Source of the DNA: Oscillospiraceae bacterium
GTDB taxonomy: Bacteria > Bacillota > Clostridia > Oscillospirales > Oscillospiraceae
Assembly (NCBI GenBank): GCA_017561205.1
Contig: JAFZDL010000081.1
Location: 1 to 59,200 of the forward strand
Reading direction: 5' to 3'
DNA: 59,200 nucleotides
A model generated the notes under the pieces. The model was not told the DNA's origin. It did not search any database and saw only the letters and a list, made by a program, of their open reading frames with translations. Made by a program: the position numbers and the translations under genes. The stretch's first letter is position 1. Each line of letters starts with the position of its first letter. Below are positions 3,059 through 53,916 of this stretch, one piece after another.

Positions 3059-3124
3059 TTGAAAATAAAAACGAATTCTAGAATCATGTGTTATCTCAAT
3101 TTTATTTATGAAGGAGTTTTTATT

Positions 3125-3475
3125 ATGTGTAAAGTCAATACAGGAGCAATTATTTTAGCAAACATTCCGTTTCACGAGGACAATCCGCATATGCACTATG
3201 GAGACCATTACTATGTCGTAGTAAGTAACACTGCTTGTTGCATACATAGTCCAGTGGTCCATGCGGTACCACTTTCCTCTAATTGCAACAGAAGATTGCC
3301 TACCCAAGTTGAGATTTATTGCAAAAACCTTCCGAAGAGGTCTTTTGCCCTTGCCGAGCAATTAACCCTGTTGCCAAAGTCTGCATTGGAAGATGGCAAA
3401 TTGTGCGGTTATATTGAAAATGAATCTATGGAAAGGGTTCATTCCGCAATCAAAATCCAACTTTCACTGAATTAA
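3125..3475 (+). CDS. MazF/PemK-like toxin-fold protein
   Basis: This is a 116-aa protein starting at ATG 3125 behind GAAGGAG. The features GAIILANIPF, GDHYYVVVSN, SPVVHAVPLSS and LPTQVEI follow the MazF/PemK family pattern (beta-barrel endoribonuclease, conserved G-D near the N-terminus, P-V-V and T-x-V-E-I). Family members cleave mRNA and are normally paired with a small antitoxin. None is encoded immediately upstream: the previous gene is a membrane protein separated by a terminator. It is therefore a solitary copy or is controlled from elsewhere. Substrate and activity are not shown by the sequence. Confidence 0.75.
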   Translation: MCKVNTGAIILANIPFHEDNPHMHYGDHYYVVVSNTACCIHSPVVHAVPLSSNCNRRLPTQVEIYCKNLPKRSFALAEQLTLLPKSALEDGKLCGYIENESMERVHSAIKIQLSLN

Positions 3476-3653: not shown

Positions 3654-3686
3654 AAAAAGCACATCGGAATGAACCGATGTGCTTTT
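3654..3686 (-). terminator. Terminator of the TIR/SPFH operon
   Basis: Stem AAAAGCACATCGG / CCGATGTGCTTTT. On the minus strand it follows the stop at 3705 and ends in TTTTT. Confidence 0.85.
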
Positions 3687-3704: not shown

Positions 3705-4766
3705 TCAAAGCCGTCTGAAATTCTCGATTTTCCTTTTGTCGTAACGGAAATACATTCTTTCTTGTCGGGTTTTAATAACTCGTTCCAAATAATCAATGAC
3801 CATCAAACAGGTCTCCTCGTTGATATCATCACTGTAAATGCCTAACTTTGCATGGACGAGATTTCGTTTGTCACGAATGTCGTGTGCCATCTCGGCACCA
3901 TCCATCCATCGAGGGTATTCAATATATTTCACAGCATTGATATAGTCTTTAAGAGTTGCCTTCTCCTTATACCCCTTACGGTCTTCTGGCTGGAAATCTT
4001 CTTCAAAGTAATTCTTGCCACTCATATCATTAAGCCAGTCAATAAGGATTGCTTCCAATATACTTCCCGCCATTATGAGAGTTGCTTTATAAGCCTTTGC
4101 CTTGAAACAGGCCCTTAATTCCTCAATATCTTGTCGGACCATTTCGGAAAATAGTTCGGACTTTTTCTCAAGAACCTTATCAAGGCACTCTGTGTTGAAG
4201 AGAGATGCAATACTTTGATTTTCCTCTTCGTTCCACTTGGCAATCAATTCATTATAAGCATCTATATCCAGTTGGTAATGGTGCTCAATTTCAAATGTCT
4301 TGCGGTATTCCTTCTCCGATAGAGTAGGACGAGGTATGTAGAGTTCACGAATTTGATGAGCAGTTAATGTGGGGCCGATTGATGCACGAGTGAAGCACGA
4401 CAGCATTTCTTGTCCTGTCTGACTGTTTAAGAATAGGCAAATATATTCTGGCTGTACTTTCCCATTAGGGCGGAGAACGACATCCTGTTCCTTATGGTAA
4501 ATGGGTTCGTAGGGTTCTTCATCAACCATATACACCGACTTAATAAAACCGTTATGTATGATAATGTCGTACCGCTGCACCTGCATATCCGTGAGTGCCC
4601 ATTCTTTGAGTTTTGAATAGTCAATAGGATATTCGTATGCTCCGAGATTCTTGCCCGTTCCTTGCCGTCTGTGAGGTCTTCTGATTTCGGCAATATCGCC
4701 CAGACAGATAAGGTCCTCTTGGCCGATTAACTCTTGTATAAACTTTTTAACCTCACTTGTGTCCAT
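3705..4766 (-). CDS. HsdS-like target-recognition domain fused to a HEPN-like domain
   Basis: A 353-aa soluble protein, last gene of the seven-gene operon. The N-terminal half (about 15-165) resembles a type I restriction specificity target-recognition domain, notably VQPEYICLFLNSQTGQEML and the GPTLTAHQIRELYIPRP signature. The C-terminal half (about 205-345) is helical and carries RDKRNLVH (298-305), an Rx6H arrangement like the HEPN ribonuclease motif, in a DUF4145-like setting (AGSILEAILIDWLN). No methylase or HsdR is nearby, so it does not act as a normal HsdS. RBS AGAGGAAAT precedes ATG 4766. A likely role is recognition coupled to RNA cleavage in defence; this is an inference. Confidence 0.6.
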   Translation of the reverse strand: MDTSEVKKFIQELIGQEDLICLGDIAEIRRPHRRQGTGKNLGAYEYPIDYSKLKEWALTDMQVQRYDIIIHNGFIKSVYMVDEEPYEPIYHKEQDVVLRPNGKVQPEYICLFLNSQTGQEMLSCFTRASIGPTLTAHQIRELYIPRPTLSEKEYRKTFEIEHHYQLDIDAYNELIAKWNEEENQSIASLFNTECLDKVLEKKSELFSEMVRQDIEELRACFKAKAYKATLIMAGSILEAILIDWLNDMSGKNYFEEDFQPEDRKGYKEKATLKDYINAVKYIEYPRWMDGAEMAHDIRDKRNLVHAKLGIYSDDINEETCLMVIDYLERVIKTRQERMYFRYDKRKIENFRRL

Positions 4767-4784
4767 GGCGATTTCCTCTCTTGC

Positions 4785-5363
4785 TTAATGATACTTTATG
4801 ATAACTTTATCGTCTGGATAAAAATAGTTAATATCCTCAAAACTGTCGTTGCCGTCAATAGAAACACTTTTCACTTTTCCGTCGTTCCAGAATGCCAAAC
4901 CAGCATCATCCAAATCGACGGTAACTATGTTTGTGAAGCCCATTTCTTCGAACTGCTCGACAACTGCCTCGTAGTTTTCACCGATATAATCGTCATAGTA
5001 TCCAGCACATATTTTGCCTTGTGCCTGTGAAGTCCACTTGTTTATTCCAAAGCCAAGTAAGATGGCAAGAATTATAAACAACGGAATACCCAGTCCACAA
5101 ATAAGACCAATTTTGTTGTCTCGCTTGTCTTTTCGCTCCTCGTATTCAAGTTCGGTTAAGCGAACCTTTTCCTTTCGCTCGTTTTCTCTGATGCGGGCCT
5201 CATCTCGCTTTGTGTGAGTGTAGTTGTAATTGTAATTGTGAGTGGTTGTCCTGTTCTCATCATCAATTACCAACTTCGCACCGCAGTACGAGCAGAAAGC
5301 GATATTGTCTTTAACATCGAGGTTGGCTCCACAGTTCTGACAAGTTAATTTTACTGTTTTCAT
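4785..5363 (-). CDS. Zinc-ribbon / transmembrane / PASTA-like protein
   Basis: 192 aa. An N-terminal zinc ribbon (C8, C11, C24, C27) is followed by a charged coiled-coil stretch (about 50-85) and one membrane helix (about 87-108, GLICGLGIPLFIILAILLGFG). The outside domain contains GENYEAVVEQFEEMGFTNI, which looks like a PASTA-type fold. The zinc-ribbon spacing equals that of the proteins at 5376-8084 and 8852-10207, suggesting a shared docking mode. RBS GGAGGTTGGTGA. It lies 12 bases after the TIR gene and 18 bases before the next, so it is co-transcribed. YdjG-like proteins of the B. subtilis pspA-ydjGHI operon are a possible analogy. Confidence 0.65.
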   Translation of the reverse strand: MKTVKLTCQNCGANLDVKDNIAFCSYCGAKLVIDDENRTTTHNYNYNYTHTKRDEARIRENERKEKVRLTELEYEERKDKRDNKIGLICGLGIPLFIILAILLGFGINKWTSQAQGKICAGYYDDYIGENYEAVVEQFEEMGFTNIVTVDLDDAGLAFWNDGKVKSVSIDGNDSFEDINYFYPDDKVIIKYH

Positions 5364-5375
5364 TCACCAACCTCC

Positions 5376-8084
5376 TTAACCAACTGCTTCGATAGTGATT
5401 GTCCATCTCACATTGTCATCAGCATTGATTTCTAAATATCCTCCATTTAGTGGTCCGTTAAATGGTTGCATTTTTTCAAGCGATAATTTATCGGAAAACA
5501 GACTTTCTATCCAATATGCAGCATTATCACCATTGGAATATTTCAAATATACATAAAAACTACCGCCCCATTTTCCATCAATCGAAGATGCCTTTCCTGT
5601 AACAACAAAATTGCCACTAGGAACAGTTATATTTCGTATGGTTTTAAATCCACTACCAGAATAGGTTAGAGTTTTAAATGTAACCGTACCACATCTCGAA
5701 CACTTCGTTCCACCTGTACTATGACCGAGAGCACTACCAGAGGTTTGTCCACAAGTCTTACACTTCTTTGCTTCTGTGCAGGTAGCAGAGGAATAGTTAT
5801 GACCAGTTGCTTTAATATCATCACGATAACTATGGTCGCAAGTGGAGCACTTATAATCCTTGAAACCGCCTGCTTCACAAGTGGCATTCTTGGAATTGAC
5901 CACCTTGTAGTCGTGCTTACCAGTTGCTTTCAGGTCTTCACGATATGTCTGTCCGCAACCACCGCACTTGAAGTCTTTATATCCGTCCTTGACACAGGTA
6001 GCATTTTCGGAAGCGGTGACTTCGTAATTGTGTAAGTGAATGAGTTCGGCACTATCCTTGTAATCTTTTATCTGCTCGAACAAGGCATTTGCTTCGTCCC
6101 ATTTCTTTTCTGCTCTCAAAGCGGTTGCTTGAATATACAAGCATTCCTTTGCCTTTTCGGGAGCATCCTCGAAGTTGCCGAGTTTGCTGTAAATATCGTA
6201 AGCAGCAGAGTAATTCTGCTCGGCAAACAAGGCTTCCGCCTTGTTGTAATTGCTTCTCGGAAGAATGAATCCGAAGAAGATTACGGAGAAGAGGACAACC
6301 ACAGTAAGAACCAGCAAAGTGATTTTTGTAATTGTTTTTTTCTTTCGCTTCTTGGCGGCAATTGCTTCGTTCTCGGCATAAATTAACCGTTCGCAATTAT
6401 CAATCTGTACGGCAGCATCCTTATAATCTCTGATAGAACCAAACCCGTCGATTGCTTTTTGAAGAACGGCAATACGGTTGTCAGAGTTAGAGTTCATCAG
6501 TTTCAAAGACTTTTGATAGACAACTTCTTTCTTGGCCACTTCCGCTTTGTCAGAGCAGAGAGCAGATAAGTGTCGGGCATCTTCGAACTCCGAAATGCTA
6601 TCGAATAACTTCTTCGCTGCGATAAAGTCATCTGCCGTAGTACCAGCATTCATTTTTGCAACCGCTTGGGTATATACCGCTTTTGACTGCTGATACTGTG
6701 CTTCTTTTCGAGCTGATTCAGCCTTATCGGCACAAAGAATGGAGAGTTGCTTTGCATCGGCATAATGAGGGATGGTATCAAACAACCGCTTCGCAGACAG
6801 GAAATCATCCTCATAAATGCCGTCGTTCATTTTGGAAACCGCTTGGTCATAAATAGATTTCACACTATTCTTCTTAACTGCTTCGGCATATCCTTCAAGG
6901 GTTGCCTTCAATTGCGGGTTAGCAAAACGAACCGCTTTCTCATAGTTAGGAGAATGGTCAAAACTATCATCGAGTCGTGCCAAGTCTTCCTGCCTCTTAA
7001 CACCGCATTCAATGAGCAGTTTGGCAACATATATCATCGGGTGCTTCGGAGCCGTAGCGACCACTTGCTCTAACAATTGGTTTGCTTTCTGAATGTTGCC
7101 ATCCTCAATAAGAAGTAAGGCATAGTCGATAGTCGCCTCAATGCTGGTGCCACCACTTGCGGTGTTTTCCTTTTTGTCGGTTGTTTTACCAGCAGAAAGT
7201 ATTTTCTTGATGCCGTGTGTCAAGTCCTGCATGAATCCAAGTTTGGACATATCCTGTGCCTGCAAGTGGGAGAACTCTTCGGGCAGGTCGTAGGGGTCCA
7301 TATCACGGTATGCGGGAATGAGAGTGTTCCTGGCACCATTGCGGATAAGGGAGAGATATCTGCTCCATTCGTTCTTTACCCAAACAGCATTGAAGTGTTC
7401 AGGTTTGGTACCGAGCACAACCATAACCTTTGCGGAGTTGAGTGCAGCAAAGATAATCGGTTCATACTCCTGACCGAGTTTGTCTTCAAGTGTAATACGG
7501 GAGAAGAATACTTTGTAACCTTCACGGGTAAGTTCGTTATAAAGTTCGGTTGCGAGAACACTGTCTTGGGTTCTGCGGCCATTGGCATCGGTTTCCTTAT
7601 AACAGATAAACACATCAAACGGGTCTTCCGATTGAGATACTTCCAGAATGCCTTTTTGAATGCTGTCTATCTGTTCTGCTTCCTGCTCATAAATTGCTTT
7701 TTGAGTGTCATCCGCATACAGAATAGCGGACTTATAGTCCTCATCCGAGAAGATGGAAGTATATTGTGCTCGGTTAATAGTAGGAATACGACGGCGAGTA
7801 GCAGGGTCTTCTACATACTCAATACCATAACGGCAGAGAACGATAGACCAGTATGCTTCACTGTCACTCCTATCCTCGCTTAATATTTGCTCGTAAATGC
7901 TTAATGCCTTGTCATAATCATTGTTCCTACGGAAATGATTTGCTCGGTCATAAAGGTTTGAAATTCGCTCGTCAGACAGTCTTGGCAGGGTTTGCTTCGT
8001 GCCGCAATACTGACATTCAACTACGGTCGTACCTGCGACTATTTCAAGACTGCCTCCGCACATTTTACACTTGAATATAGACAT
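5376..8084 (-). CDS. Zinc-ribbon / TPR / TIR-domain membrane protein
   Basis: 902 aa. In order: zinc ribbon (C6, C9, C24, C27), a TPR-like helical pair (about 40-90), a TIR domain (about 155-300: FDVFICYKETD, RITLEDKLG, VWVKNEW with E239 at the place of the NADase glutamate), helical TPR-like repeats (about 320-580), one membrane helix (about 590-615), another TPR pair, CxxC repeats (KCGGCGQ, KCSTCDH, KCKTCGQ, KCSRCG), and a beta-rich C-terminal domain. TIR domains of bacterial defence systems degrade NAD or make cyclic ADP-ribose signals. The TIR part should be cytoplasmic and the CxxC part outside. RBS AAGGGGTGA. This is the central gene of the operon and the likely effector. Confidence 0.8.
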   Translation of the reverse strand: MSIFKCKMCGGSLEIVAGTTVVECQYCGTKQTLPRLSDERISNLYDRANHFRRNNDYDKALSIYEQILSEDRSDSEAYWSIVLCRYGIEYVEDPATRRRIPTINRAQYTSIFSDEDYKSAILYADDTQKAIYEQEAEQIDSIQKGILEVSQSEDPFDVFICYKETDANGRRTQDSVLATELYNELTREGYKVFFSRITLEDKLGQEYEPIIFAALNSAKVMVVLGTKPEHFNAVWVKNEWSRYLSLIRNGARNTLIPAYRDMDPYDLPEEFSHLQAQDMSKLGFMQDLTHGIKKILSAGKTTDKKENTASGGTSIEATIDYALLLIEDGNIQKANQLLEQVVATAPKHPMIYVAKLLIECGVKRQEDLARLDDSFDHSPNYEKAVRFANPQLKATLEGYAEAVKKNSVKSIYDQAVSKMNDGIYEDDFLSAKRLFDTIPHYADAKQLSILCADKAESARKEAQYQQSKAVYTQAVAKMNAGTTADDFIAAKKLFDSISEFEDARHLSALCSDKAEVAKKEVVYQKSLKLMNSNSDNRIAVLQKAIDGFGSIRDYKDAAVQIDNCERLIYAENEAIAAKKRKKKTITKITLLVLTVVVLFSVIFFGFILPRSNYNKAEALFAEQNYSAAYDIYSKLGNFEDAPEKAKECLYIQATALRAEKKWDEANALFEQIKDYKDSAELIHLHNYEVTASENATCVKDGYKDFKCGGCGQTYREDLKATGKHDYKVVNSKNATCEAGGFKDYKCSTCDHSYRDDIKATGHNYSSATCTEAKKCKTCGQTSGSALGHSTGGTKCSRCGTVTFKTLTYSGSGFKTIRNITVPSGNFVVTGKASSIDGKWGGSFYVYLKYSNGDNAAYWIESLFSDKLSLEKMQPFNGPLNGGYLEINADDNVRWTITIEAVG

Positions 8085-8120
8085 CTCTTCACCCCTTGGA
8101 ATAGGAATATTCCATTTCGT

Positions 8121-8822
8121 TTATTTTAACAATTTGCACTTCTTGTTTCTGATATCAATGAGTGAAAGCAGTTCATCTGCAGTAGAGGTAGCAAGTTCGT
8201 AATCTTCGCCATTAACGGCATTCTCAAAATCAGAGAAACCGTTCTGGATTTTTTCTTCTACTTCAACAAGAACTGCATTGGACATCGGGTCAGAATAACG
8301 GACTGCTTCATATACCTTTTTGGCAAGTGCTTTCAGTTCGGTGGTCTTGGCAGTGTTCATCAGATGCTCTGCATCTACTGTGAGAGATTTCACGAAGAAT
8401 GTCTTAACCTTTACTCGTTGGTCGATGTCGGTAACAACCGATGCTGCAAATCCAGCCGAAAGAACCGCAATAGCAGTAATGGCAAGAACAAGCAGGCAAA
8501 AAATAATACCAATCCAGTTGGGCAAATTTGGAATTGCCATACAAGCAGTTCCTGCGATGAGCATGGCAATTAATCCAGCATAACTAATGGTAACAAGAGG
8601 AATGTTATAAAATACCTTTTGCTTATCGCTGGGTTTGAATGCGAAAAATGCACATACCAATTGACCGATGAAGGCAATTGTGATGAATATATATCCAACC
8701 CAGAAAGCACCGCCGAACTTGGTCATTCCGCCTGCTTCATTCGGTGTAACAAATACAATTACATTAAATAGGGCAAGGAATGTCGCCCAAATTATCGAGA
8801 AAAAACCAAATGTCTTTTTCAT
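8121..8822 (-). CDS. Four-helix membrane protein with cytoplasmic helical tail
   Basis: 233 aa from ATG 8822, chosen because GGAGGTATAGCA precedes it; the longer frame to 8855 would overlap the upstream gene. Four hydrophobic helices lie in residues about 5-130 (IIWATFLALFNVIVFV, VGYIFITIAFIGQLVCAFFAF, YAGLIAMLIAGTACM, IGIIFCLLVLAITAIAVLSAGF). A soluble charged helical domain of about 100 residues follows. No known family is recognised. Gaps of 29 and 36 bases to its neighbours place it in the operon, where it probably provides the membrane component for the SPFH and zinc-ribbon proteins. Confidence 0.65.
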   Translation of the reverse strand: MKKTFGFFSIIWATFLALFNVIVFVTPNEAGGMTKFGGAFWVGYIFITIAFIGQLVCAFFAFKPSDKQKVFYNIPLVTISYAGLIAMLIAGTACMAIPNLPNWIGIIFCLLVLAITAIAVLSAGFAASVVTDIDQRVKVKTFFVKSLTVDAEHLMNTAKTTELKALAKKVYEAVRYSDPMSNAVLVEVEEKIQNGFSDFENAVNGEDYELATSTADELLSLIDIRNKKCKLLK

Positions 8823-8851
8823 TGCTATACCTCCGCTTACGATAGGAAAAA

Positions 8852-10207
8852 TCATCTATCCATGGTTAATTTAGATTTGATTGATTGCTTTTCTCTGTCT
8901 AAATCTTGAATTTGTTTCTTTAAAGGGGTCAATTCCTTTTCAATAGGAGCCAATTCTTCATTTACCGAAGCAATCAATTCATTCCGTTGATTTTTGGCAA
9001 TAACATCTAATCTGGCTCTTTCCGAATCAAGTGCTTGAACTTCTTCCATTATTGCTTTTTTTCGTTTACCTGCAAATAACCCCAAACTTTCTCGTTCTTT
9101 AAGCAATGCACTTCTCTTTTCGGACAAAACTCGTATTTCGGCATCGATGGGTACAGGATTATTCTTTTTCTTGCTAATATTATTATATTGAATGTCTAAA
9201 CGGCTTGCATTTTCCTTTAACGGTTTTAATTCGTCTTCAATTTCAGAAAGCCTTGCTTCTAGTTGTGCTTTTTCTTCGGCATGTTCGGCCCAGTATTTTT
9301 CAATTCTTTCTTCTTTTTCTTTTCGTGCTTTTTCTGCCTGTTTTTTCTCAAAATTAGACTTCCAAGTTTGCAAATTGCTTTTTGCTTTATTTATAGCAGC
9401 ACTCAATTCATTTCGAGCAGTAATTGTCTTATAATCGGGAGACACATTTTCAATAACATCCTCGTAAATCTGCCAGAAGGAGTTATATTTACTTCCCGTC
9501 TTAATGGAAAAAGAAGCATTCATATTGCTAACCGTGGTATTACCAAGACTAATAATCGTATTAATAAGATTAGTTAGGCCTTCCTTATCCTCATAATGCT
9601 CATAAGCGGTCTCATCCATCATATTAAGGTTAAACTTGATAAGTTCGCTTATCAAACATTCTCTTTCATAAAACTCTCTTGCCGCACTAACCACTTCACC
9701 AGCGAATTCGTTGGCATGATTTACAATTAAATTGGAAACTGCTTGTATCCAGTTAAACAATTCAACAGTCATTGCTAACTTTCCGTCAGCCTTCAATTTG
9801 TCAGTCTGCTCTTCATCGGTTAAAAGTAGTTTGGTTGCATCGACAATACCACCTAGAACCTCTGAAACACGAATGTTGGCAAGATTGGATTGCCATCCCA
9901 AACACATTCCTTTTCTGAATGTTGCAAACCAATAATCAACCTTTTTCTCCAAAATTTTACAATAATATGTATATGCTTCTTCGTAATTACTATTTCCGTA
10001 GGCAGTGCTTGCCATTGTTTCCCAATTGCCGATTTGTTCTTGAACGGCATCCGTATCGTCAATTTTAACCGTGCCCGTAATTTCTTGAACCTTTGCTTTA
10101 ACTCTATCCTTGGTATGTTTCATTCCACAACTTTCACAGACGGCAAAGTCACCACTTGCATCCATAGAGAGTTGACCACCGCAAATATCACAAATTAATG
10201 CTGCCAT
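8852..10207 (-). CDS. Zinc-ribbon protein with TPR-like and long coiled-coil regions
   Basis: 451 aa. The N-terminal zinc ribbon (C6, C9, C24, C27) is followed by a TPR-like segment (about 60-105, YGNSNYEEAYTYYCKILEKK) and a helical middle. A long charged coiled coil (about 275-451) is rich in E, K and L and contains AGKRKKAIMEEVQAL. There is no membrane segment. RBS AAGGAGAAAAAG. It is encoded 22 bases after the SPFH gene. The design suggests a cytoplasmic scaffold or PspA-like coiled-coil partner recruited through the zinc ribbon; partner identity is inferred. Confidence 0.6.
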   Translation of the reverse strand: MAALICDICGGQLSMDASGDFAVCESCGMKHTKDRVKAKVQEITGTVKIDDTDAVQEQIGNWETMASTAYGNSNYEEAYTYYCKILEKKVDYWFATFRKGMCLGWQSNLANIRVSEVLGGIVDATKLLLTDEEQTDKLKADGKLAMTVELFNWIQAVSNLIVNHANEFAGEVVSAAREFYERECLISELIKFNLNMMDETAYEHYEDKEGLTNLINTIISLGNTTVSNMNASFSIKTGSKYNSFWQIYEDVIENVSPDYKTITARNELSAAINKAKSNLQTWKSNFEKKQAEKARKEKEERIEKYWAEHAEEKAQLEARLSEIEDELKPLKENASRLDIQYNNISKKKNNPVPIDAEIRVLSEKRSALLKERESLGLFAGKRKKAIMEEVQALDSERARLDVIAKNQRNELIASVNEELAPIEKELTPLKKQIQDLDREKQSIKSKLTMDR

Positions 10208-10229
10208 TTTCTTTTTCTCCTTTTTTATA

Positions 10230-11360
10230 TTATAATATTTCGGAAAGCAACTTTGCTTTCATACTATTGAACTCTTCTTCGGAGAGCATTCCTGCTTCCT
10301 TCATCATTGTCAGTTTGTCAACCTTGGCCTTAAATGCTGCCATATCATCAACAGGAGCAGCAGGGGTTACAGGAGCAGTGGCAGAATTCATCGCATCGTT
10401 CATCATTCCGCCAACCATACCGCCAACGGCACCGCCGACACCTGCCATTGTTCCAAAACCAACACCCATATTCGTAAACTCACCAACCGCCTCGTTCTGG
10501 GCAACCTTTTCAGCAACATCGAAACCTCTCTCTTGCTGGTAGGTGTAACCTTCCTGTGCTCGTTTGGTTGCCTGTGCTCTCGAATCAATAACGGTTTTCT
10601 GTGCTTCGGTTTCTGCATTGATAATCTCGGTCTGCTGACGAAGTTTTGCTTCGGCAATGTCGGCATATTGACGGAAGTGCAGTTCCTTAAACTTTTCATA
10701 CTGTATGTCACCATCTGGCTTAACGATAGTAGTCACAAAGAACTGTTCGAGTGCCACACCATAATCTGCAAAATCGCCTACAAGAAGGTTCTTGATGGCA
10801 TTGGAGAACATAGTGAGGTTCTCGTCAATCTCAAAGATGTTAATGCTATTGGTCTTCATAACCTGTGCAATATAAGTCTTCACACGGGTCATCAGGAAGG
10901 AACGGAAGTAATTGGTCAACTGCTGTTGTCCAAGATAACTTTCGGTACCAACCAATTTCAGAAGAAGTTTTCTGCTATCTTCGGCACGGAGAGACATCTC
11001 ACCAGATGCACCGATAGAAAGTGGGAAGCCGTAAGTAGGTTCTATATACTGAACACGGGAGTCAGTGCCCCATTTAATGTTCATCTGCTCGGTCTTGTTG
11101 ATAAAATAAACCTCGCAATGGAACGGTGTTTTATCGTCTGTTGCCTTGTTGAGCACCTTGCCGATAAGGGGAATGTTCTGTGTTTCAAGAGTATAGCGAC
11201 CCGCACCGAACATATCGAGTGCCTGACCATTCATAAAGAAGATTGCTTCCTGGCTCTCGTGAACAATCAACTGGGTGAGGTAATTAAAGTCCTCACAGGG
11301 GTGTTTCCAAATAAAGGTGCTATTGTCACCTTCGTATTTAATTATGTCTGCTATTTTCAT
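10230..11360 (-). CDS. SPFH/Band-7 domain protein with C-terminal SHOCT (YdjI-like)
   Basis: 376 aa. The N-terminal two thirds match the YdjI-type SPFH proteins annotated as virion-core-like (FIWKHPCEDFNYLTQLIVHESQEA, ALDMFGAGRYTLET, NYFRSFLMTRVKTYIA), followed by a helical AE-rich tail (about 235-285). Next come a glycine-rich segment (about 290-320) and a C-terminal SHOCT motif (KLTMMKEAGMLSEEEFNSMKAKLL). SPFH proteins form membrane-associated oligomeric scaffolds. In B. subtilis YdjI works with PspA and YdjGH in membrane stress. RBS TAGGAGGAAG. It is the second gene of the operon, 33 bases after the RHH gene. Confidence 0.85.
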   Translation of the reverse strand: MKIADIIKYEGDNSTFIWKHPCEDFNYLTQLIVHESQEAIFFMNGQALDMFGAGRYTLETQNIPLIGKVLNKATDDKTPFHCEVYFINKTEQMNIKWGTDSRVQYIEPTYGFPLSIGASGEMSLRAEDSRKLLLKLVGTESYLGQQQLTNYFRSFLMTRVKTYIAQVMKTNSINIFEIDENLTMFSNAIKNLLVGDFADYGVALEQFFVTTIVKPDGDIQYEKFKELHFRQYADIAEAKLRQQTEIINAETEAQKTVIDSRAQATKRAQEGYTYQQERGFDVAEKVAQNEAVGEFTNMGVGFGTMAGVGGAVGGMVGGMMNDAMNSATAPVTPAAPVDDMAAFKAKVDKLTMMKEAGMLSEEEFNSMKAKLLSEIL

Positions 11361-11393
11361 TTCTGCTTCCTCCTATACAAAATGGTTTGTTAA

Positions 11394-11585
11394 TCAGTAT
11401 TCTTTGATTTCTAAATTATCAACAGCAAAGGCAAGGCACTTCTGAATTACTTCATTTCTTGTTCTGCCTGTTTCCTCGGCAATCGCATCCAGTTTCTTTA
11501 CCAGTTCGTCTGGCAATCGAATAGATACCACGGTAGAATCACCTCTATACTTCTTGGAAGAAATAATCAATTTTTCATTCGGCAT
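11394..11585 (-). CDS. Ribbon-helix-helix (CopG/Arc-type) regulator, 63 aa
   Basis: The core VVSIRLPDELVKKLDAIAEETGRTRNEVIQKCL is a textbook RHH DNA-binding domain: the beta strand SIRLP, then two helices around TGRTRNEV. It is the first gene of the minus-strand operon. A dyad lies inside its promoter spacer (11626-11639), so autorepression of the whole SPFH/TIR operon is likely. RBS AAGGAG. It could alternatively be the antitoxin-like member of the system. Confidence 0.8.
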   Translation of the reverse strand: MPNEKLIISSKKYRGDSTVVSIRLPDELVKKLDAIAEETGRTRNEVIQKCLAFAVDNLEIKEY

Positions 11586-11620: not shown

Positions 11621-11650
11621 ATTATATTACAAATGTAATGTATTTGTCAA
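11621..11650 (-). promoter_or_regulatory. Operon promoter with dyad operator in the spacer
   Basis: Minus strand: TTGACA (11650-11645), an 18-base spacer, then TATAAT (11626-11621). The spacer contains the perfect dyad ATTACA-TT-TGTAAT (11639-11626), ideally placed for an RHH dimer pair. It drives the gene at 11394-11585 and probably everything down to 3705. Confidence 0.75.
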
Positions 11651-12040: not shown

Positions 12041-12544
12041 TCAGACGAGCATATCGTTAGTTTCAAAAATCACCTTATCCAGTTTTGCGGCATATTTCTT
12101 CGCCTCAAATGCTCCGCCGTGGTCACGACGAACATAGGTTACAATGAAATCGCTGTTTTCGACCATCCATCTATTTCTCTTGGTGATTGCCGACTTTGGA
12201 TGCACACCAGCAAGGATGTCGGGAATAACAACATCATCATAGGTGTACTCATAGTACTCCTTATTGGTATTAAGTTCATTGGAGAAATAAGGTTTGATAA
12301 GTATAAGTTTGATGTCGGGGTATTTTCGTTTCAGACCACGAACAGCAGCGGAGAAACTTCCGTCAAAGTTTCCCATTCCACCCGTCCAGAACTCCACGAC
12401 CCCTTGGTTAAGTATTAAGTCTTCAAGCAACTCCGATAATACACGAGAAAAATCCTTATAAGTTTCCCGATGCCCGAAGCAAGTGCATATTTTGTTTTCT
12501 ATTTTAAACCCTTCTTTCAGGATAAGTTTTCGATAACAGAACAT
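12041..12544 (-). CDS. SLOG-family (YpsA/DUF1273-like) nucleotide-binding protein
   Basis: 167 aa as read from ATG 12544. Motifs follow the YpsA-like SLOG fold: CTCFGHRE near the N-terminus, WTGGMGNFDGSFSAAVRGLK (glycine-rich Rossmann loop), YPDIKLILIKPYF, NRWMVENSDFIVTYVRRDHGGAFEA. SLOG domains bind nucleotides; in Thoeris the SLOG part of ThsA senses the TIR-made cyclic ADP-ribose. Here it lies on the same strand just upstream of a TIR operon. The start is uncertain: the -10 box (12554-12549) is so close that ATG 12544 would be at the transcript end. An alternative start is inside, just before ENKICTCFGHR. Confidence 0.65.
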   Translation of the reverse strand: MFCYRKLILKEGFKIENKICTCFGHRETYKDFSRVLSELLEDLILNQGVVEFWTGGMGNFDGSFSAAVRGLKRKYPDIKLILIKPYFSNELNTNKEYYEYTYDDVVIPDILAGVHPKSAITKRNRWMVENSDFIVTYVRRDHGGAFEAKKYAAKLDKVIFETNDMLV

Positions 12545-17210: not shown

Positions 17211-18374
17211 ATGGCAATAAGAGCAAACATCGCAAAAGATGGCGACAAGTTTCGTGTGACTTATCGTTATTACGACCCCGCTACTGGTATTACCAAAAAC
17301 ACCTGTAAACGAGGTTTCAAACTCAAACGAGAAGCCAAGAAGTGGATAGAGACCGAATTACCTTCAATCATCGAAGCCTTGGAACAAAAGAGGAAGGCCA
17401 TCAGCACAATGACGATGGACGAACTCATTGAAGAGTATCTCTTCTACAAGAAGATGCATGTCCGCATTACTACCTTCGAGACCAAGAAGCATATTATCGA
17501 GACCAAAATCTTGCCTTATTTCAAGGGTAGATTTGTCGTTGATATTGAACCCTACGATATTATGCAGTGGCAACACCATCTGATAGAGAGCCAAAAGTTG
17601 GTGAAGGAAACGGTTACATCTAACAATGGCAAGGAGAAGGTCATCAAAAGCAAGGAGTATTACTCTGACACCTACCTCCGCACCATTAACAACCAATTGG
17701 TTGCTATCTTCAATTTTGCCACCACTTTCCGCCATCTTCCTGTAAGTCCGTGCAGAGGCATCGTAAAGATGGGGGCAAAGAAGGCACCTGAACGAGAAAT
17801 CTGGGAACCGCACGAGTTCAACCAGTTTATTCGTACACAGGAAGATAACCCATTGCGACATTGTGCTTATAGTACCTTGTACTGGTCTGGCATTAGAGAG
17901 TCCGAGTTGTTAGGCATCACCTATGGAAGCATAGATTTTTCCAATAACATTCTCTATGTAAAAGATGGTTACCACAAGGTAAAGGGCAAAGTAGACAGAG
18001 GGTTGAAGACCAAGGAAAGTTATCGTCCCGTTAAGATACCTGCCTTTTTGAGCGAAGAACTCAAAGAGTATACGGACAGTCTTGGCCCTTTGATGCCTAA
18101 TGTTCGCATCTTCGAGACGAGCAAAACTTCTTTGCTGAAACATCTTCATGCAGGTGCGAAAGAGGCAGGTGTCAAAGATATCTGTGTGCACTGTCTGCGA
18201 CACAGTTACATCAGTATGTGTGTCCAGCAAGGTGTACCTTACACCACTATTTCTGCCCAAGTCGGTCACAGTGAGTTCCTTCAGAGTTTGCATTACTCTC
18301 ACTCTTACAAGAACAGCGGCGATTTCCTCGTCAATGCTTTGGAACAAGTGAAAGGATGTGTTGCAAATGTCTGA
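17211..18374 (+). CDS. int: Tyrosine integrase of the guaA-associated element, 387 aa
   Basis: Full-length integrase. The N-terminal arm-binding region (FRVTYRYYDPATGITKNTCKRGFKLKREAKKW) is followed by a SAM-like core-binding domain (about 60-180) and a catalytic domain. That domain shows Arg in YWSGIRESELLGI, HCLRHSYIS (HxxR), VGHSEFLQSL, and Tyr in LHYSHSY. ATG 17211 is chosen because AAGGAGGTG lies 7 bases upstream. The product probably integrates the element at the 3' end of guaA (19962), about 1.6 kb away. The 3' end overlaps the next gene by 8 bases. Confidence 0.9.
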   Translation: MAIRANIAKDGDKFRVTYRYYDPATGITKNTCKRGFKLKREAKKWIETELPSIIEALEQKRKAISTMTMDELIEEYLFYKKMHVRITTFETKKHIIETKILPYFKGRFVVDIEPYDIMQWQHHLIESQKLVKETVTSNNGKEKVIKSKEYYSDTYLRTINNQLVAIFNFATTFRHLPVSPCRGIVKMGAKKAPEREIWEPHEFNQFIRTQEDNPLRHCAYSTLYWSGIRESELLGITYGSIDFSNNILYVKDGYHKVKGKVDRGLKTKESYRPVKIPAFLSEELKEYTDSLGPLMPNVRIFETSKTSLLKHLHAGAKEAGVKDICVHCLRHSYISMCVQQGVPYTTISAQVGHSEFLQSLHYSHSYKNSGDFLVNALEQVKGCVANV

Positions 18375-22931: not shown

Positions 22932-24323
22932 ATGAAAACACGAAAGGTAAAAGTTTTACAGGCATTGCTGACGGTGAGCTTGGCTGCGGTTTTGCTGCTG
23001 AGCTTTGCTGCCTGTGGCAAAAAGAAAAAGCCTGCCCCCACTGATGCAACCACCGAACCCACATTGATAACGGAGGCTACCGAGTCCACCGATGCAACCA
23101 CGGCCCCTACCCAGGCTCCCACCGAGGAGACCACCGAGTCCACTGAGCCCACCTGCGAGCATCCCAATGCCAAGATGGTTGTGGATAAGGAGCCTACCTG
23201 CCGGATTCAGGGCAGCCAGCATATGGAATGCGAAGACTGTGAGTATGTAGGACCTGCTGAGGTCATTGAGAAGATCGACCATATTTCCAGCGATTGGATC
23301 CTGGAGAAGGAAGCTACCTGCTTAGAGCAAGGCAATCAGTACATAGAGTGTACCATGTGCAAGACACGGCAGGCCAATATCCCAATCCCCAAGACAGGCC
23401 ACACTCCCGGTGAATGGATCTTAGATAAGCAGGCCACCAACACAGAGCCCGGCAAGACCCACCAGGAGTGCGATATATGCAAAGAAGTTCTTGCAACTGC
23501 AGAAATCCCCACCACCGGAACATCCGGTTTGGCATTTAAGCAGAACCTGGACGGACAGACCTATACCGTTACCGGCATCGGTACCTGCAAGGATACTGTG
23601 ATCTACATTCCCGGGGCCTATGAGGGCGGCGCTGTTACCGCCATTGGCGAGAAGGCCTTTGCCGGCTGCGCCAAGGTGGAGAAGATTATTTTGCCTAACT
23701 CCGTTACGGAGATCGGCGACCGGGCATTCTACGATTCTGGCATTCAGGAATTTACTATTCCTGCAAGTGTAAAGAAGATCGGCACACAGATTTTCTTCCA
23801 GGCAGATAAGCTGGATACTGTGTATTACAACAGCGATTATGCAAATCAAACCGCGCCTGTTTTTGGTGCTACCTGGATCAGAAAGGTAGTCTTTGACGGC
23901 AAGAAAGTACCTGCCTATGTATGCCAGGGCGCATCCGGACTTTCAGAAGTTGTCATTGGCAAGACTGTTACCGAAATCGGCAACAACGCCTTTGAAGATT
24001 GCACGAATTTGGGTACTGTGACCATTCCCGACAGCGTTTCTGCTATCGGTGAAGCATCCTTTGCCGGCTGTTCCGCTTTGAGCACTGTGACCATTCCCGA
24101 CAGCGTGACCCGTATCAACAAGCGGGCTTTCGCAGGCTGTACCAGTCTTTACACGGTTACTATTCCTGCCAGTATGACCAATATTGGCGAGGAAGCATTC
24201 AGCCAGTGCAAGAAACTGCAGACGATTGACTTCCAGGGCAAGCAGACCCAGTGGGATAAGATCACCAAGGGCGCAAACTGGGATTATATGATTAGCAATT
24301 ACGCCGTAAACACCAAAGGTTAA
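22932..24323 (+). CDS. Surface lipoprotein with BspA-type leucine-rich repeats
   Basis: 463 aa. The signal peptide ends in a lipobox (LSFAAC, Cys at about 26) followed by KKKK. A Thr/Pro/Glu-rich linker (about 30-75) is followed by three CxxC-containing repeats of about 40 residues (MECEDCEYVGPAEV, IECTMCKTRQANIP, HQECDICKEVLATAE). The C-terminal half has BspA-like LRR_5 units (TEIGDRAFYDSGIQEFTIP, TEIGNNAFEDCTNLGTVTIP, SAIGEASFAGCSALSTVTIP). It is anchored to the membrane and exposed outside, probably in adhesion or binding. Confidence 0.9.
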   Translation: MKTRKVKVLQALLTVSLAAVLLLSFAACGKKKKPAPTDATTEPTLITEATESTDATTAPTQAPTEETTESTEPTCEHPNAKMVVDKEPTCRIQGSQHMECEDCEYVGPAEVIEKIDHISSDWILEKEATCLEQGNQYIECTMCKTRQANIPIPKTGHTPGEWILDKQATNTEPGKTHQECDICKEVLATAEIPTTGTSGLAFKQNLDGQTYTVTGIGTCKDTVIYIPGAYEGGAVTAIGEKAFAGCAKVEKIILPNSVTEIGDRAFYDSGIQEFTIPASVKKIGTQIFFQADKLDTVYYNSDYANQTAPVFGATWIRKVVFDGKKVPAYVCQGASGLSEVVIGKTVTEIGNNAFEDCTNLGTVTIPDSVSAIGEASFAGCSALSTVTIPDSVTRINKRAFAGCTSLYTVTIPASMTNIGEEAFSQCKKLQTIDFQGKQTQWDKITKGANWDYMISNYAVNTKG

Positions 24324-52372: not shown

Positions 52373-53329
52373 TTAATAATGCAGGTAACTCCAACTGGTA
52401 GAGAGTATCATATCCACGGGATAGTTGCTGTCTGTGGATTCAGTGACCTTCAAATTACCGTTGCCCATCAAAACCATTTTGATGGTAGTGCTATACCACT
52501 GATCAGTGATTAAGATTTCGGTGTCGGTTAGGTCCACCTCGGCGGGGTGCATACCGGCACCGTGGCGGTAGTATTCCTTACCACCATAGGCAACGGGGGG
52601 TCTGTTCTTATCGATGTCTTCCTCGTTGGCGGAGAACATAGCATCCAGCAACAGGCAGTAGACACCTTCTCCATAACCGCCGTTATCCCAAAAAGAGATG
52701 CCCCGGGCGGAGATGGTCTCCTCATCATAGGGAATATATGCCTGAGAAATGTACTCCGGATTGGCGTCATCACTGCAGATTTTGAGATTTGTATTGGGAT
52801 TCAGAATATCTGCGGCATTGCAAACAGTGCAGACACCGTTTTCAAAAGTATGGGAACCCACAGAGCCTTCTGTTGCGCCGCAGCTGGTGCAGGTCTTGGG
52901 CGCTTGGCAAGTAGCATCTTTCCAGGTGTGCATATGAGGGGGTTCTGTAGATTTTGTGGTAGGAGTGGTGGCGGGTTTTGTGGTGGGGGTCGTAGTGGGC
53001 TTTACAGTGGGCTTCGTGGTAGGAGTGGTTGAGGGCTTCACTGCGGGCTTCGTGGTAGGAGCAGTAGTGGGGTTCGCAGTAGGCTTTGTGGTAGGAACTG
53101 CTGTGGGCTTTGTAGAGGAAGGATCCGTGGCTGTTGTTGCCTCGGTAGCTACGGTGGACTCGTCGGTTACATCGGTAGCAGCAGTAGATTCAGCAGTAGG
53201 TTCAGCGCTGGGTGCGGTAGTCGCTACTGTGGTGGGGGAGGTTCCTTTTTGCTCAGTTTTCTTTTTGCCACAGGCGGCCAGGGAAAGACAAAGAACTAAC
53301 GCCAGGGTAAAGGAAAGCGCTTTTTTCAT
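52373..53329 (-). CDS. Surface lipoprotein with long Thr/Pro-rich stalk
   Basis: 318 aa from ATG 53329 (MKKALSFTLALVLCLSLAACGKKK), lipobox Cys about 20. A low-complexity stalk (about 30-120) of TTKP/TTPT repeats follows, then CxxC units (CQAPKTCTSCGATEG, CTVCNAAD) and a C-terminal beta-rich domain ending SWSYLHY. It is anchored in the membrane with the stalk reaching through the wall. The frame stays open to 53674 but that part covers a terminator hairpin and an inverted repeat; it has no start with an RBS, so it is leader. RBS GAGGTAAT. Confidence 0.85.
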   Translation of the reverse strand: MKKALSFTLALVLCLSLAACGKKKTEQKGTSPTTVATTAPSAEPTAESTAATDVTDESTVATEATTATDPSSTKPTAVPTTKPTANPTTAPTTKPAVKPSTTPTTKPTVKPTTTPTTKPATTPTTKSTEPPHMHTWKDATCQAPKTCTSCGATEGSVGSHTFENGVCTVCNAADILNPNTNLKICSDDANPEYISQAYIPYDEETISARGISFWDNGGYGEGVYCLLLDAMFSANEEDIDKNRPPVAYGGKEYYRHGAGMHPAEVDLTDTEILITDQWYSTTIKMVLMGNGNLKVTESTDSNYPVDMILSTSWSYLHY

Positions 53330-53345
53330 AATATTACCTCTTTCT

Positions 53346-53376
53346 AATAAAAAATGCGCAGCAGAAGCTGCGCACG
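53346..53376 (-). terminator. Leader terminator or attenuator upstream of the lipoprotein gene
   Basis: On the minus strand TGCGCAGC-ttct-GCTGCGCA is followed by TTTTTTATT, only about 17 bases before the start codon. A transcript from further upstream would stop here unless relieved. Confidence 0.7.
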
Positions 53377-53399
53377 AAAAACACAGCCTCCTGCTTGCG

Positions 53400-53506
53400 C
53401 CACACAAGTTCAACATTCTTTTAGAGAAAGTCAAATTAGGAGAACGTGTTTTTACCATAAGGATAAAAACATTTTCTCCAAAAGAATATGATATAAACTT
53501 GTGTGG
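53400..53506. repeat. 107-bp near-palindrome with 11-bp inverted ends
   Basis: Ends CCACACAAGTT (53400-53410) and AACTTGTGTGG (53496-53506). Inner blocks TTCTTTT, GGAGAA and GTTTTTA also pair, giving one long imperfect hairpin. It could be a MITE-like remnant or the structured part of the lipoprotein leader. Confidence 0.6.
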
Positions 53507-53557
53507 CAGGAATATTGTAGCAGTTACTTTCAAAAAATGCAAGGCTTTTCTGTCGAA

Positions 53558-53583
53558 AAAGCCCCGCCTAAAGGCGAGGCTAA
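53558..53583 (-). terminator. Terminator of the yitT-azlC-azlD operon
   Basis: On the minus strand GCCTCGCC-ttta-GGCGGGGC is followed by TTTTT, just after the stop at 53599. Confidence 0.85.
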
Positions 53584-53598
53584 AGAAAGACGGATGAA

Positions 53599-53916
53599 TC
53601 AGAAAATCACTTGTACCAGTATCATATAAAACACTGTGCCGGCGCCGATGCTCAGCAGGCTGTTTCGTTTCCACAGATGCAAAAGAGCAACGAACACAAT
53701 TCCCAGCAGTTCCGGAATGCCATAGGGATAAGCCAGAGGTGTGACCTCTTTCAGACAGTACACCACCAGCATACCCATAATGGCGCAGGGGAGAACCTTG
53801 CCTAAATACAGGATCAGCTCCGGGGTTTTTCGCTTTTCGCCGAAAATCAAAAAGGGCAAAAACCGGGTGGACATGGTGACCAATGCGACCACAACGATCA
53901 AAGCGATTTTATACAT
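53599..53916 (-). CDS. azlD: AzlD-family branched-chain amino acid exporter subunit
   Basis: 105 aa with three to four membrane helices: ALIVVVALVTMSTRFLPFLIF, YLGKVLPCAIMGMLVVYCL, IPELLGIVFVALLHLWKRNSLLSIGAGTVFYMIL. Residues TRFLPF and the MG-ML centre are typical of AzlD. It pairs with AzlC, whose gene overlaps it by 8 bases. Confidence 0.88.
   Translation of the reverse strand: MYKIALIVVVALVTMSTRFLPFLIFGEKRKTPELILYLGKVLPCAIMGMLVVYCLKEVTPLAYPYGIPELLGIVFVALLHLWKRNSLLSIGAGTVFYMILVQVIF

Follow-up and report, generated by a model that had tools for sequence, protein, structure and literature searches.

This study concerns an operon at positions 3705-11585 of a 59,200-nucleotide stretch of Oscillospiraceae DNA (contig JAFZDL010000081.1 of assembly GCA_017561205.1), and the whole of that stretch is referred to below as the window. 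Seven minus-strand open reading frames (ORFs), separated by gaps of 12-36 bases, encode an RHH regulator, an SPFH scaffold protein, a 451-aa zinc-ribbon protein, a transmembrane (TM) protein, a 902-aa protein with a TIR domain, a 192-aa zinc-ribbon protein, and a fusion of an HsdS-type target recognition domain (TRD) to a HEPN-like domain (Table 1). The ORFs lie where an earlier sequence-only reading of the window had placed them. A promoter match and a probable terminator, both named in that reading, were seen, and the setting of the operon within a mobile element, with integrases at 1488 and 17202 and a NikA-like protein at 18358, was also borne out. That reading had taken all seven genes as one module. 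We rejected the seven-gene set as the unit, since only the SPFH, TM, and TIR genes are widely shared and recur as a cluster; the conserved unit is these three genes on the same strand. As called, the ORFs of the 451-aa and TM proteins overlap by 4 bases; when the TM protein is started at a conserved Met (8822), the position from which it matches the profile, the gap between the two genes is 29 bases.

Table 1. Genes and regulatory features of the operon (positions in the window)
Feature	Position	Strand	Evidence
RHH (CopG/Arc-like) regulator, 63 aa, heads the operon	11394..11585	-	RHH_1 1.7e-8 (Pfam)
SPFH/Band 7 scaffold protein, 376 aa, core	10230..11360	-	Band_7_1 9.8e-38 (Pfam)
Zinc ribbon + coiled-coil-like protein, 451 aa, accessory	8852..10207	-	N-terminal C6, C9, C24, C27
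Membrane (TM) protein, 244 aa, core; about four predicted TM segments, conserved RYSDPMS	8121..8855	-	alignment
Zinc ribbon-TPR-TIR-TM-sensor protein, 902 aa, core	5376..8084	-	TIR_2 1.9e-10, TPR_14 3.5e-12 (Pfam)
Zinc ribbon single-TM protein, 192 aa, accessory	4785..5363	-	
HsdS-type TRD + HEPN-like (Rx6H, R298-H305) fusion, 353 aa, accessory cargo	3705..4766	-	Specificity_I 4.9e-8 (PADLOC)
Sigma-70 promoter, 18-nt spacer	11621..11650	-	12/12 consensus
Probable terminator, 13-pair stem	3655..3686	-	stem followed by TTTTTCTGT on operon strand

Linkage of the SPFH, TM, and TIR genes

The distribution of the 902-aa TIR protein was surveyed in 295 genomes of the order, with three candidates scored per genome, and matches were obtained in 27 genomes, often several per genome, one of the 27 (G038) matching C-terminal parts only. 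In addition, a profile search with a zinc ribbon-TIR alignment over contigs of 84,980 species gave at least 564 relatives, from which the best 80 loci (78 distinct) were taken. Judged by title, the loci are mostly from Clostridia, and exceptions among the best 78 include a planctomycete (L124) and Solobacterium (L150). Genes in the fetched loci were called with a custom ORF picker, and names given below "as read" come from reading the translations. In the 110 non-redundant TIR loci (L033-L151 and the window, with duplicates removed), the SPFH gene was found within 6 kb of the TIR gene in 70, the TM gene in 67, and both in 63, and in all 74 loci with either gene near TIR it was on the TIR strand. 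When only the 55 well-flanked loci were considered, those reaching 6 kb or more to one side and 3 kb or more to the other, SPFH was present in 40 and both genes in 35. There are 64 matches of the SPFH family in 30 host genomes, TIR-adjacent ones included, and from this density we estimate that SPFH-TIR proximity would arise by chance at about 1%.

The TM and TIR proteins also occur together genome-wide. Matches to the TM protein (E up to 1e-10) were obtained in 20 of the 27 TIR genomes versus 7 of the 268 others (neither protein in 261), giving a Fisher p of 1e-19; relatedness is not taken into account in our Fisher and Poisson values, the base of the latter being an assumed ~2500 genes per genome. 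Six of the seven matches in TM-only genomes are weak (E 1e-11 to 1e-17), and at E 1e-20 the seven are reduced to one. Distances are correlated for SPFH-TM (0.60) and TM-TIR (0.44). Clustering of 1255 neighbours gave no further widely shared family, the next being the RHH family (11 loci) and an ABC-ATPase family (7 loci). The synteny of SPFH, the 902-aa TIR protein, and TRD-HEPN that the sequence-only reading had proposed to check was found for SPFH-TIR and not for TRD-HEPN, none of whose three strong relatives shows the module in the stretch fetched. More than one TIR gene is present in 26 of the 110 loci, some split or cut genes included, and in 21 of 112 non-redundant loci, multiple TIR proteins of 500 aa or more are encoded.

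The SPFH and TM genes are not confined to the neighbourhood of TIR genes. Eighteen further SPFH loci were inspected, mostly chosen as not known to be TIR-adjacent, and 8 of these show TIR, several being loci already sampled. In L172 and L175, the SPFH-TM pair is followed by zinc-ribbon proteins whose matches to the TIR profile are weak; SPFH-TM without TIR in view was seen in L177 and L186, the latter cut by the contig end; and L187 has SPFH alone. More distant SPFH sequences were seen in L178-L181 and L183, and those in L179, L180, and L181 form a group flanked by genes for small zinc-ribbon or membrane proteins, again without TIR in view. For the TM protein, no Pfam model exceeded the cut-off, and nothing useful came from PDB profile searches with this protein or with SPFH. 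In Bacillus subtilis, membrane localisation of YdjI requires YdjG and YdjH, and YdjH interacts with YdjI (PMC8581546); YdjG bears a zinc ribbon (PMC9239133). The SPFH-TM pair might be a platform whose clients are marked by N-terminal zinc ribbons. Three products of the operon carry such a ribbon, for which the sequence-only reading had given an identical spacing; two of the three share CxxC-14-CxxC, and the 192-aa protein departs from it with CxxC-12-CxxC.

The TIR protein and its variable C-terminal part

In the window protein, the TIR domain (158-282) contains E239, a TM helix starts at ~590, and the C-terminal part consists of TPR, Cys-rich repeats, and a terminal domain. Because the search patterns for the 80 loci include the E239 region, only the 38 proteins that were obtained free of patterns, the window protein included, are unbiased for this residue. 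In these, W235 and E239 are invariant (38/38), and the zinc cysteines are each kept in 36 to 38; with the pattern-selected proteins added, E239 is kept in 130 of 134. The glutamate that the sequence-only reading had offered as a candidate catalytic residue is thus where it was said to be and is conserved. When a TIR-only profile was compared with PDB sequences, the best match was the TIR domain of a Toll-like receptor (TLR; E 3.9e-5), and TcpB and flax L6 came next without significance (0.03 to 0.4). In the weak L6 match, E239 aligns with the Glu of the flax TIR. From these matches the TIR domain is clear, and it may or may not be an enzyme. TLRs are non-catalytic. Invariance of E239 would fit an enzyme, though not only that.

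Topology was predicted from hydropathy and flank charge. Of 120 proteins with 600 residues or more, 91 contain a hydrophobic helix beyond residue 330; in 84 of these 91 the flank on the N-terminal (TIR) side is the more positive, so that most members look like receptors with a cytoplasmic TIR domain and a C-terminal part predicted to lie beyond the membrane. This variable C-terminal domain, mostly beyond the membrane helix, is the main feature of the family and had been overlooked in the sequence-only reading. Over 3003 pairs of 78 single-helix proteins, median identity in the first 300 residues is 76%, a value that is inflated, and to that extent counts against us, since the loci were ranked by similarity of this part to the query; for 30 sequences taken with less selection, identity to the window protein is 49-75%. 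The C-terminal parts matched each other in 1786 of the 3003 pairs, with half-length coverage in 1328 and a median identity of 36%. A Pfam scan of 76 of the 78 (two left out) found DUF6273 in 50, RCC1 in 11, BspA-type leucine-rich repeats (LRR_5) in 6, and Listeria-Bacteroides repeats in 4, and one member, in L042, is a TIR-TM-LRR protein. DUF6273-like domains of gut phage proteins have been modelled as C-type-lectin-like (PMC10743442). For the window C-terminus, TPR_6 was the only Pfam match, and there was no LRR match in Pfam. Two predicted lipoproteins (as read) elsewhere in the window, at 52373-53674 (-) and 22932-24323 (+), carry short Cys-rich repeats resembling the C-terminus of the TIR protein; the repeat matched them with E 0.006 and 8e-6, single comparisons that give a hint only.

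Accessory genes, regulation, and mobility

The variable genes are located either between TM and TIR or elsewhere in the same gene run, and the genes for the 451-aa, 192-aa, and TRD-HEPN proteins are accessory. A search of 138 partly overlapping loci (L033-L151, the window, and L171-L188) found the tails of the 192-aa and TRD-HEPN proteins nowhere outside the window, and the tail of the 451-aa protein had a single occurrence besides the window, in L151, where the homologue lies between TM and TIR. For the latter protein, an iterated profile was discarded because it drifted into the zinc ribbons of the TIR proteins, and a search with the tail only was used instead. In total, 172 accessory proteins were collected, 132 of which are at least 84 aa long, and 118 were scanned (14 of the 132 left out). 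SIR2_2 was present in 4 of the 118, versus 6 in 30 whole host genomes, and HEPN_RiboL-PSP in 2, versus 1 in the 30 genomes. Single checks placed HEPN over the cut-off in L113 and under it in L073, L114, and L127, and SIR2_2 in L127 (1.8e-8) and, near the threshold, in L108 (1.3e-5). By reading of the sequence, L140 encodes HEPN- and SIR2-like proteins, the latter without a Pfam match, and L041 a SIR2-like one. The HEPN parts that the sequence-only reading had pointed to therefore recur, as accessory partners. A second TIR was seen in L088, DUF4365 in L119, and, between the SPFH and TIR genes of L052 (8976-9707), a fusion of a zinc ribbon and a trypsin-like protease. One accessory protein matches a ThsA model (2.5e-15), and an L088 protein matches a ThsB model (1.1e-24).

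The TRD-HEPN gene looks like cargo. The TRD half of the fusion was supported by type I specificity models, and its HEPN half by motif, with R298 and H305 as the sequence-only reading had given them; the only HEPN family model to match was DUF4145, at E 0.15. Among the 295 genomes of the order it was found in its own genome only, and among 391 of the class there are strong relatives in three genomes besides its own. The motif IR[DK]KRNLVHAKL is common to the window protein and its three relatives, with R298 and H305 kept in 4/4, and the SPFH-TM-TIR module was not seen in the stretches fetched around the three. Weak matches were noted in G421 and G575 (L197 and L198). At L195 (4568-13026), a type I restriction-modification locus (hsdM, hsdS, and hsdR, as read) includes a 512-aa protein whose C-terminal part is the TRD-HEPN relative, preceded by an extra N-terminal region.

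The RHH protein is probably an autorepressor of the operon. A palindrome, ATTACATTTGTAAT, lies within the spacer of the promoter and extends to the first base of its -10 box. Of the 112 non-redundant loci, 11 have the RHH gene, always on the strand of TIR, and 9 of these have TACA-N2-TGTA/G upstream of the gene, while 7 have TTGACA and a TAnnnT box 16-18 nt apart. TACA-N2-TGTA/G, lying between the promoter boxes, is an operator-like element. In the window as a whole, promoter-like matches are not in excess (16 versus 20.0 in shuffles), and terminator-like sites number 12 versus 7.4. The terminator tool called the stem of Table 1 on the plus strand only, the T's being seen on reading the operon strand, and another minus-strand terminator-like site is located at 3501-3480. 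Just beyond the operon is a PemK/MazF-like toxin gene (3122-3472, +), and a PemK-like gene (as read) is also found near the module in L074, the closest relative of the window. A YpsA-type SLOG gene is located upstream of the operon (12041-12544, -) and also in L074 (1807-2241); it was rejected as a conserved partner, being found at E 1e-4 in these two alone among the non-redundant loci.

Tyrosine integrase or serine recombinase genes (as read) are located near SPFH in L060, L061, and L175 and in L073 and L125, which suggests that the module is mobile in some loci. One IMG/VR contig, L073, was found among the loci. Spread of the module by plasmids or phages was rejected, because the first 520 residues of the TIR protein gave no match at E 1e-5 in the plasmid and phage collections; TRD-HEPN gave no match there either.

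Interpretation and comparison with known systems

We put at about even chances the view that the core is a conserved membrane signalling module built on an SPFH-scaffolded TIR receptor, most likely an immune system directed at phages or at surveillance of the envelope. The SPFH protein would assemble on the inner face of the membrane, held there by the TM protein in analogy to YdjI held by YdjH. The TIR protein would be a receptor, with a cytoplasmic zinc ribbon-TPR-TIR part that might dock on the scaffold via the shared zinc ribbon, in most cases a single membrane helix, and a C-terminal sensor that has diversified, such as C-type-lectin-like DUF6273, an RCC1 propeller, leucine-rich or internalin-like repeats, or, in the window, TPR and Cys-rich repeats. 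A ligand or a membrane disturbance would cause the receptors to cluster on the scaffold and their TIR domains to assemble, and the assembled TIR domains might cleave NAD+ or produce a cyclic ADP-ribose (cyclic-ADPR)-type signal. Variable partners, whether HEPN, SIR2, a second TIR, or protease-like, could in some loci contribute killing or arrest; the partners in the window would be the 451-aa and 192-aa zinc-ribbon proteins and the DNA-recognising HEPN-like protein, under one RHH-headed promoter.

Several observations weigh against this interpretation. Neither SPFH nor TM was found in 15 of the 55 well-flanked TIR loci; nine of the 15 fall in seven surveyed genomes, six of which have a strong SPFH gene on another contig. 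SPFH and TIR distances are not correlated beyond permutation (r 0.18, with a maximum of 0.22 in 500 permutations; 59 loci), and 10 of the 18 further SPFH loci have no TIR in view. The WxxxE motif is also present in the TLR TIR domain. A helix is absent from 29 of the 120 long TIR proteins, and DUF6273 or RCC1 was found in 9 of 10 helix-less members scanned, so that the sensor need not be outside and a strictly outside location of every sensor is weakened. The lack of a match in plasmid and phage collections belongs here as well, and the possibility that these are ordinary chromosomal genes, which the sequence-only reading had named as a risk, was partly realised, L064 reading as a chromosomal housekeeping context. 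The SIR2 and HEPN families were singled out after the Pfam result was seen, the random set had no Pfam scan, and most of the 25 commonest accessory Pfam families are ordinary metabolic or transport ones. PADLOC found 44 families for the 118 accessory proteins versus 47 for 118 random proteins from 19 host genomes, a comparison that counts families rather than proteins and in which the random set is longer. With this parity, PADLOC enrichment was rejected as proof of defence; it gives defence no support, and immunity is something that we infer.

The strongest rival is non-immune envelope signalling, in which the state of the cell wall or membrane, or environmental glycans, would be sensed for membrane homeostasis and TIR would be an assembly adaptor and not an enzyme. 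We regard it as rather unlikely but serious. The SPFH partner is of the YdjI family, and YdjGHI and PspA act in envelope stress; the SPFH-TM pairs that accompany weak-TIR zinc-ribbon proteins (L172 and L175) or stand without TIR in view (L177 and L186), the housekeeping context of L064, and the PADLOC parity all speak for it. However, the patchy distribution (27 of 295 genomes), the multiplicity of long TIR proteins in 21 of 112 loci, and SIR2/HEPN-type partners above the base rate speak against it, and the invariance of E239 may be added, with the reservation made above. A Thoeris-like relay, in which TIR would make a cyclic-ADPR-type messenger and separate SIR2, SLOG, or HEPN proteins would be the effectors, seems improbable to us. 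It would account for SIR2_2 in 4 of the 118 accessory proteins, the ThsA- and ThsB-model matches, the SLOG gene upstream in the window and L074, and the fact that the closest NCBIfam model for the window TIR protein is Thoeris III ThcB4 (E 4.4e-6). However, most loci have no such effector, SLOG is limited to 2 non-redundant loci, and the ThcB4 score is 25.8 bits versus a cut-off of 220. That unrelated genes were brought together by chance in a mobile element, without a joint function, we consider very improbable: the rarity or absence at other loci of the 451-aa, 192-aa, TRD-HEPN, and RHH genes is in keeping with it, but the occurrence of the SPFH-TM-TIR core in 63 of 110 loci and its genome-wide co-occurrence refute it for the core, and it could still hold for the accessory genes.

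The immune form of the SPFH-scaffolded receptor can be taken one step further. The module might be a bacterial counterpart of TLR signalling, with cytoplasmic TIR, outward lectin-like, leucine-rich, or propeller sensors, an SPFH/TM scaffold, zinc-ribbon docking tags, and exchangeable effectors, by which phage or envelope attack would be sensed from outside; this we offer tentatively and regard as rather unlikely. Most known bacterial TIR systems sense intracellular cues, and few defence systems of Clostridia have, to our knowledge, been studied by experiment. A widespread module in which TIR is joined to a membrane helix, to sensor domains of varied surface type, and to an SPFH scaffold would mean receptor-like TIR signalling at a bacterial membrane, would tie membrane-scaffold biology to immunity, and would offer a handle for tests in Clostridia.

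TIR systems and SPFH scaffolds are each of known kinds, and the SPFH-TM-TIR module was not found described. Curated models over the cut-off name single domains only and none the gene set, and no description of an SPFH-TIR operon, nor any phage or NAD experiment on the module, was found in the literature searched, which covered titles and abstract openings with most subscription journals outside its scope; the sequence-only reading had likewise known of no named system. The 902-aa protein gave no PADLOC match up to E 1. In CBASS, TIR-STING, and TIR-NLR systems, TIR serves as a signalling or effector domain; the seven window genes differ from these in having no match to a STAND ATPase, CD-NTase, STING, or SAVED. 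The TRD half of the 353-aa protein resembles HsdS, but it is fused to a HEPN-like domain, and the window operon has no HsdM or HsdR. With pspA-ydjGHI, the module shares the pairing of a Band 7 SPFH protein with a membrane protein, as well as a zinc ribbon on a partner, whereas the client here is a TIR receptor-like protein; none of the seven window genes matched PspA in Pfam, the search for PspA being confined to the window. With Thoeris, it shares TIR with the WxxxE position and, in some loci, a SIR2 partner. However, the module TIR is part of a fusion with a zinc ribbon, TPR, a TM helix, and a sensor; a fixed ThsA is replaced by SPFH and TM; and no ThsA-type effector was found in the window operon with curated models. 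The sequence match with animal TLRs was seen for the TIR domain; the order of the module protein is inverted (predicted N-in, C-out), a zinc ribbon and TPR precede TIR, the sensors are mostly DUF6273, and some members are without a helix. What the two would have in common is a single helix, here predicted, between a cytoplasmic TIR domain and a variable sensor, which carries LRRs in some members, such as that in L042.

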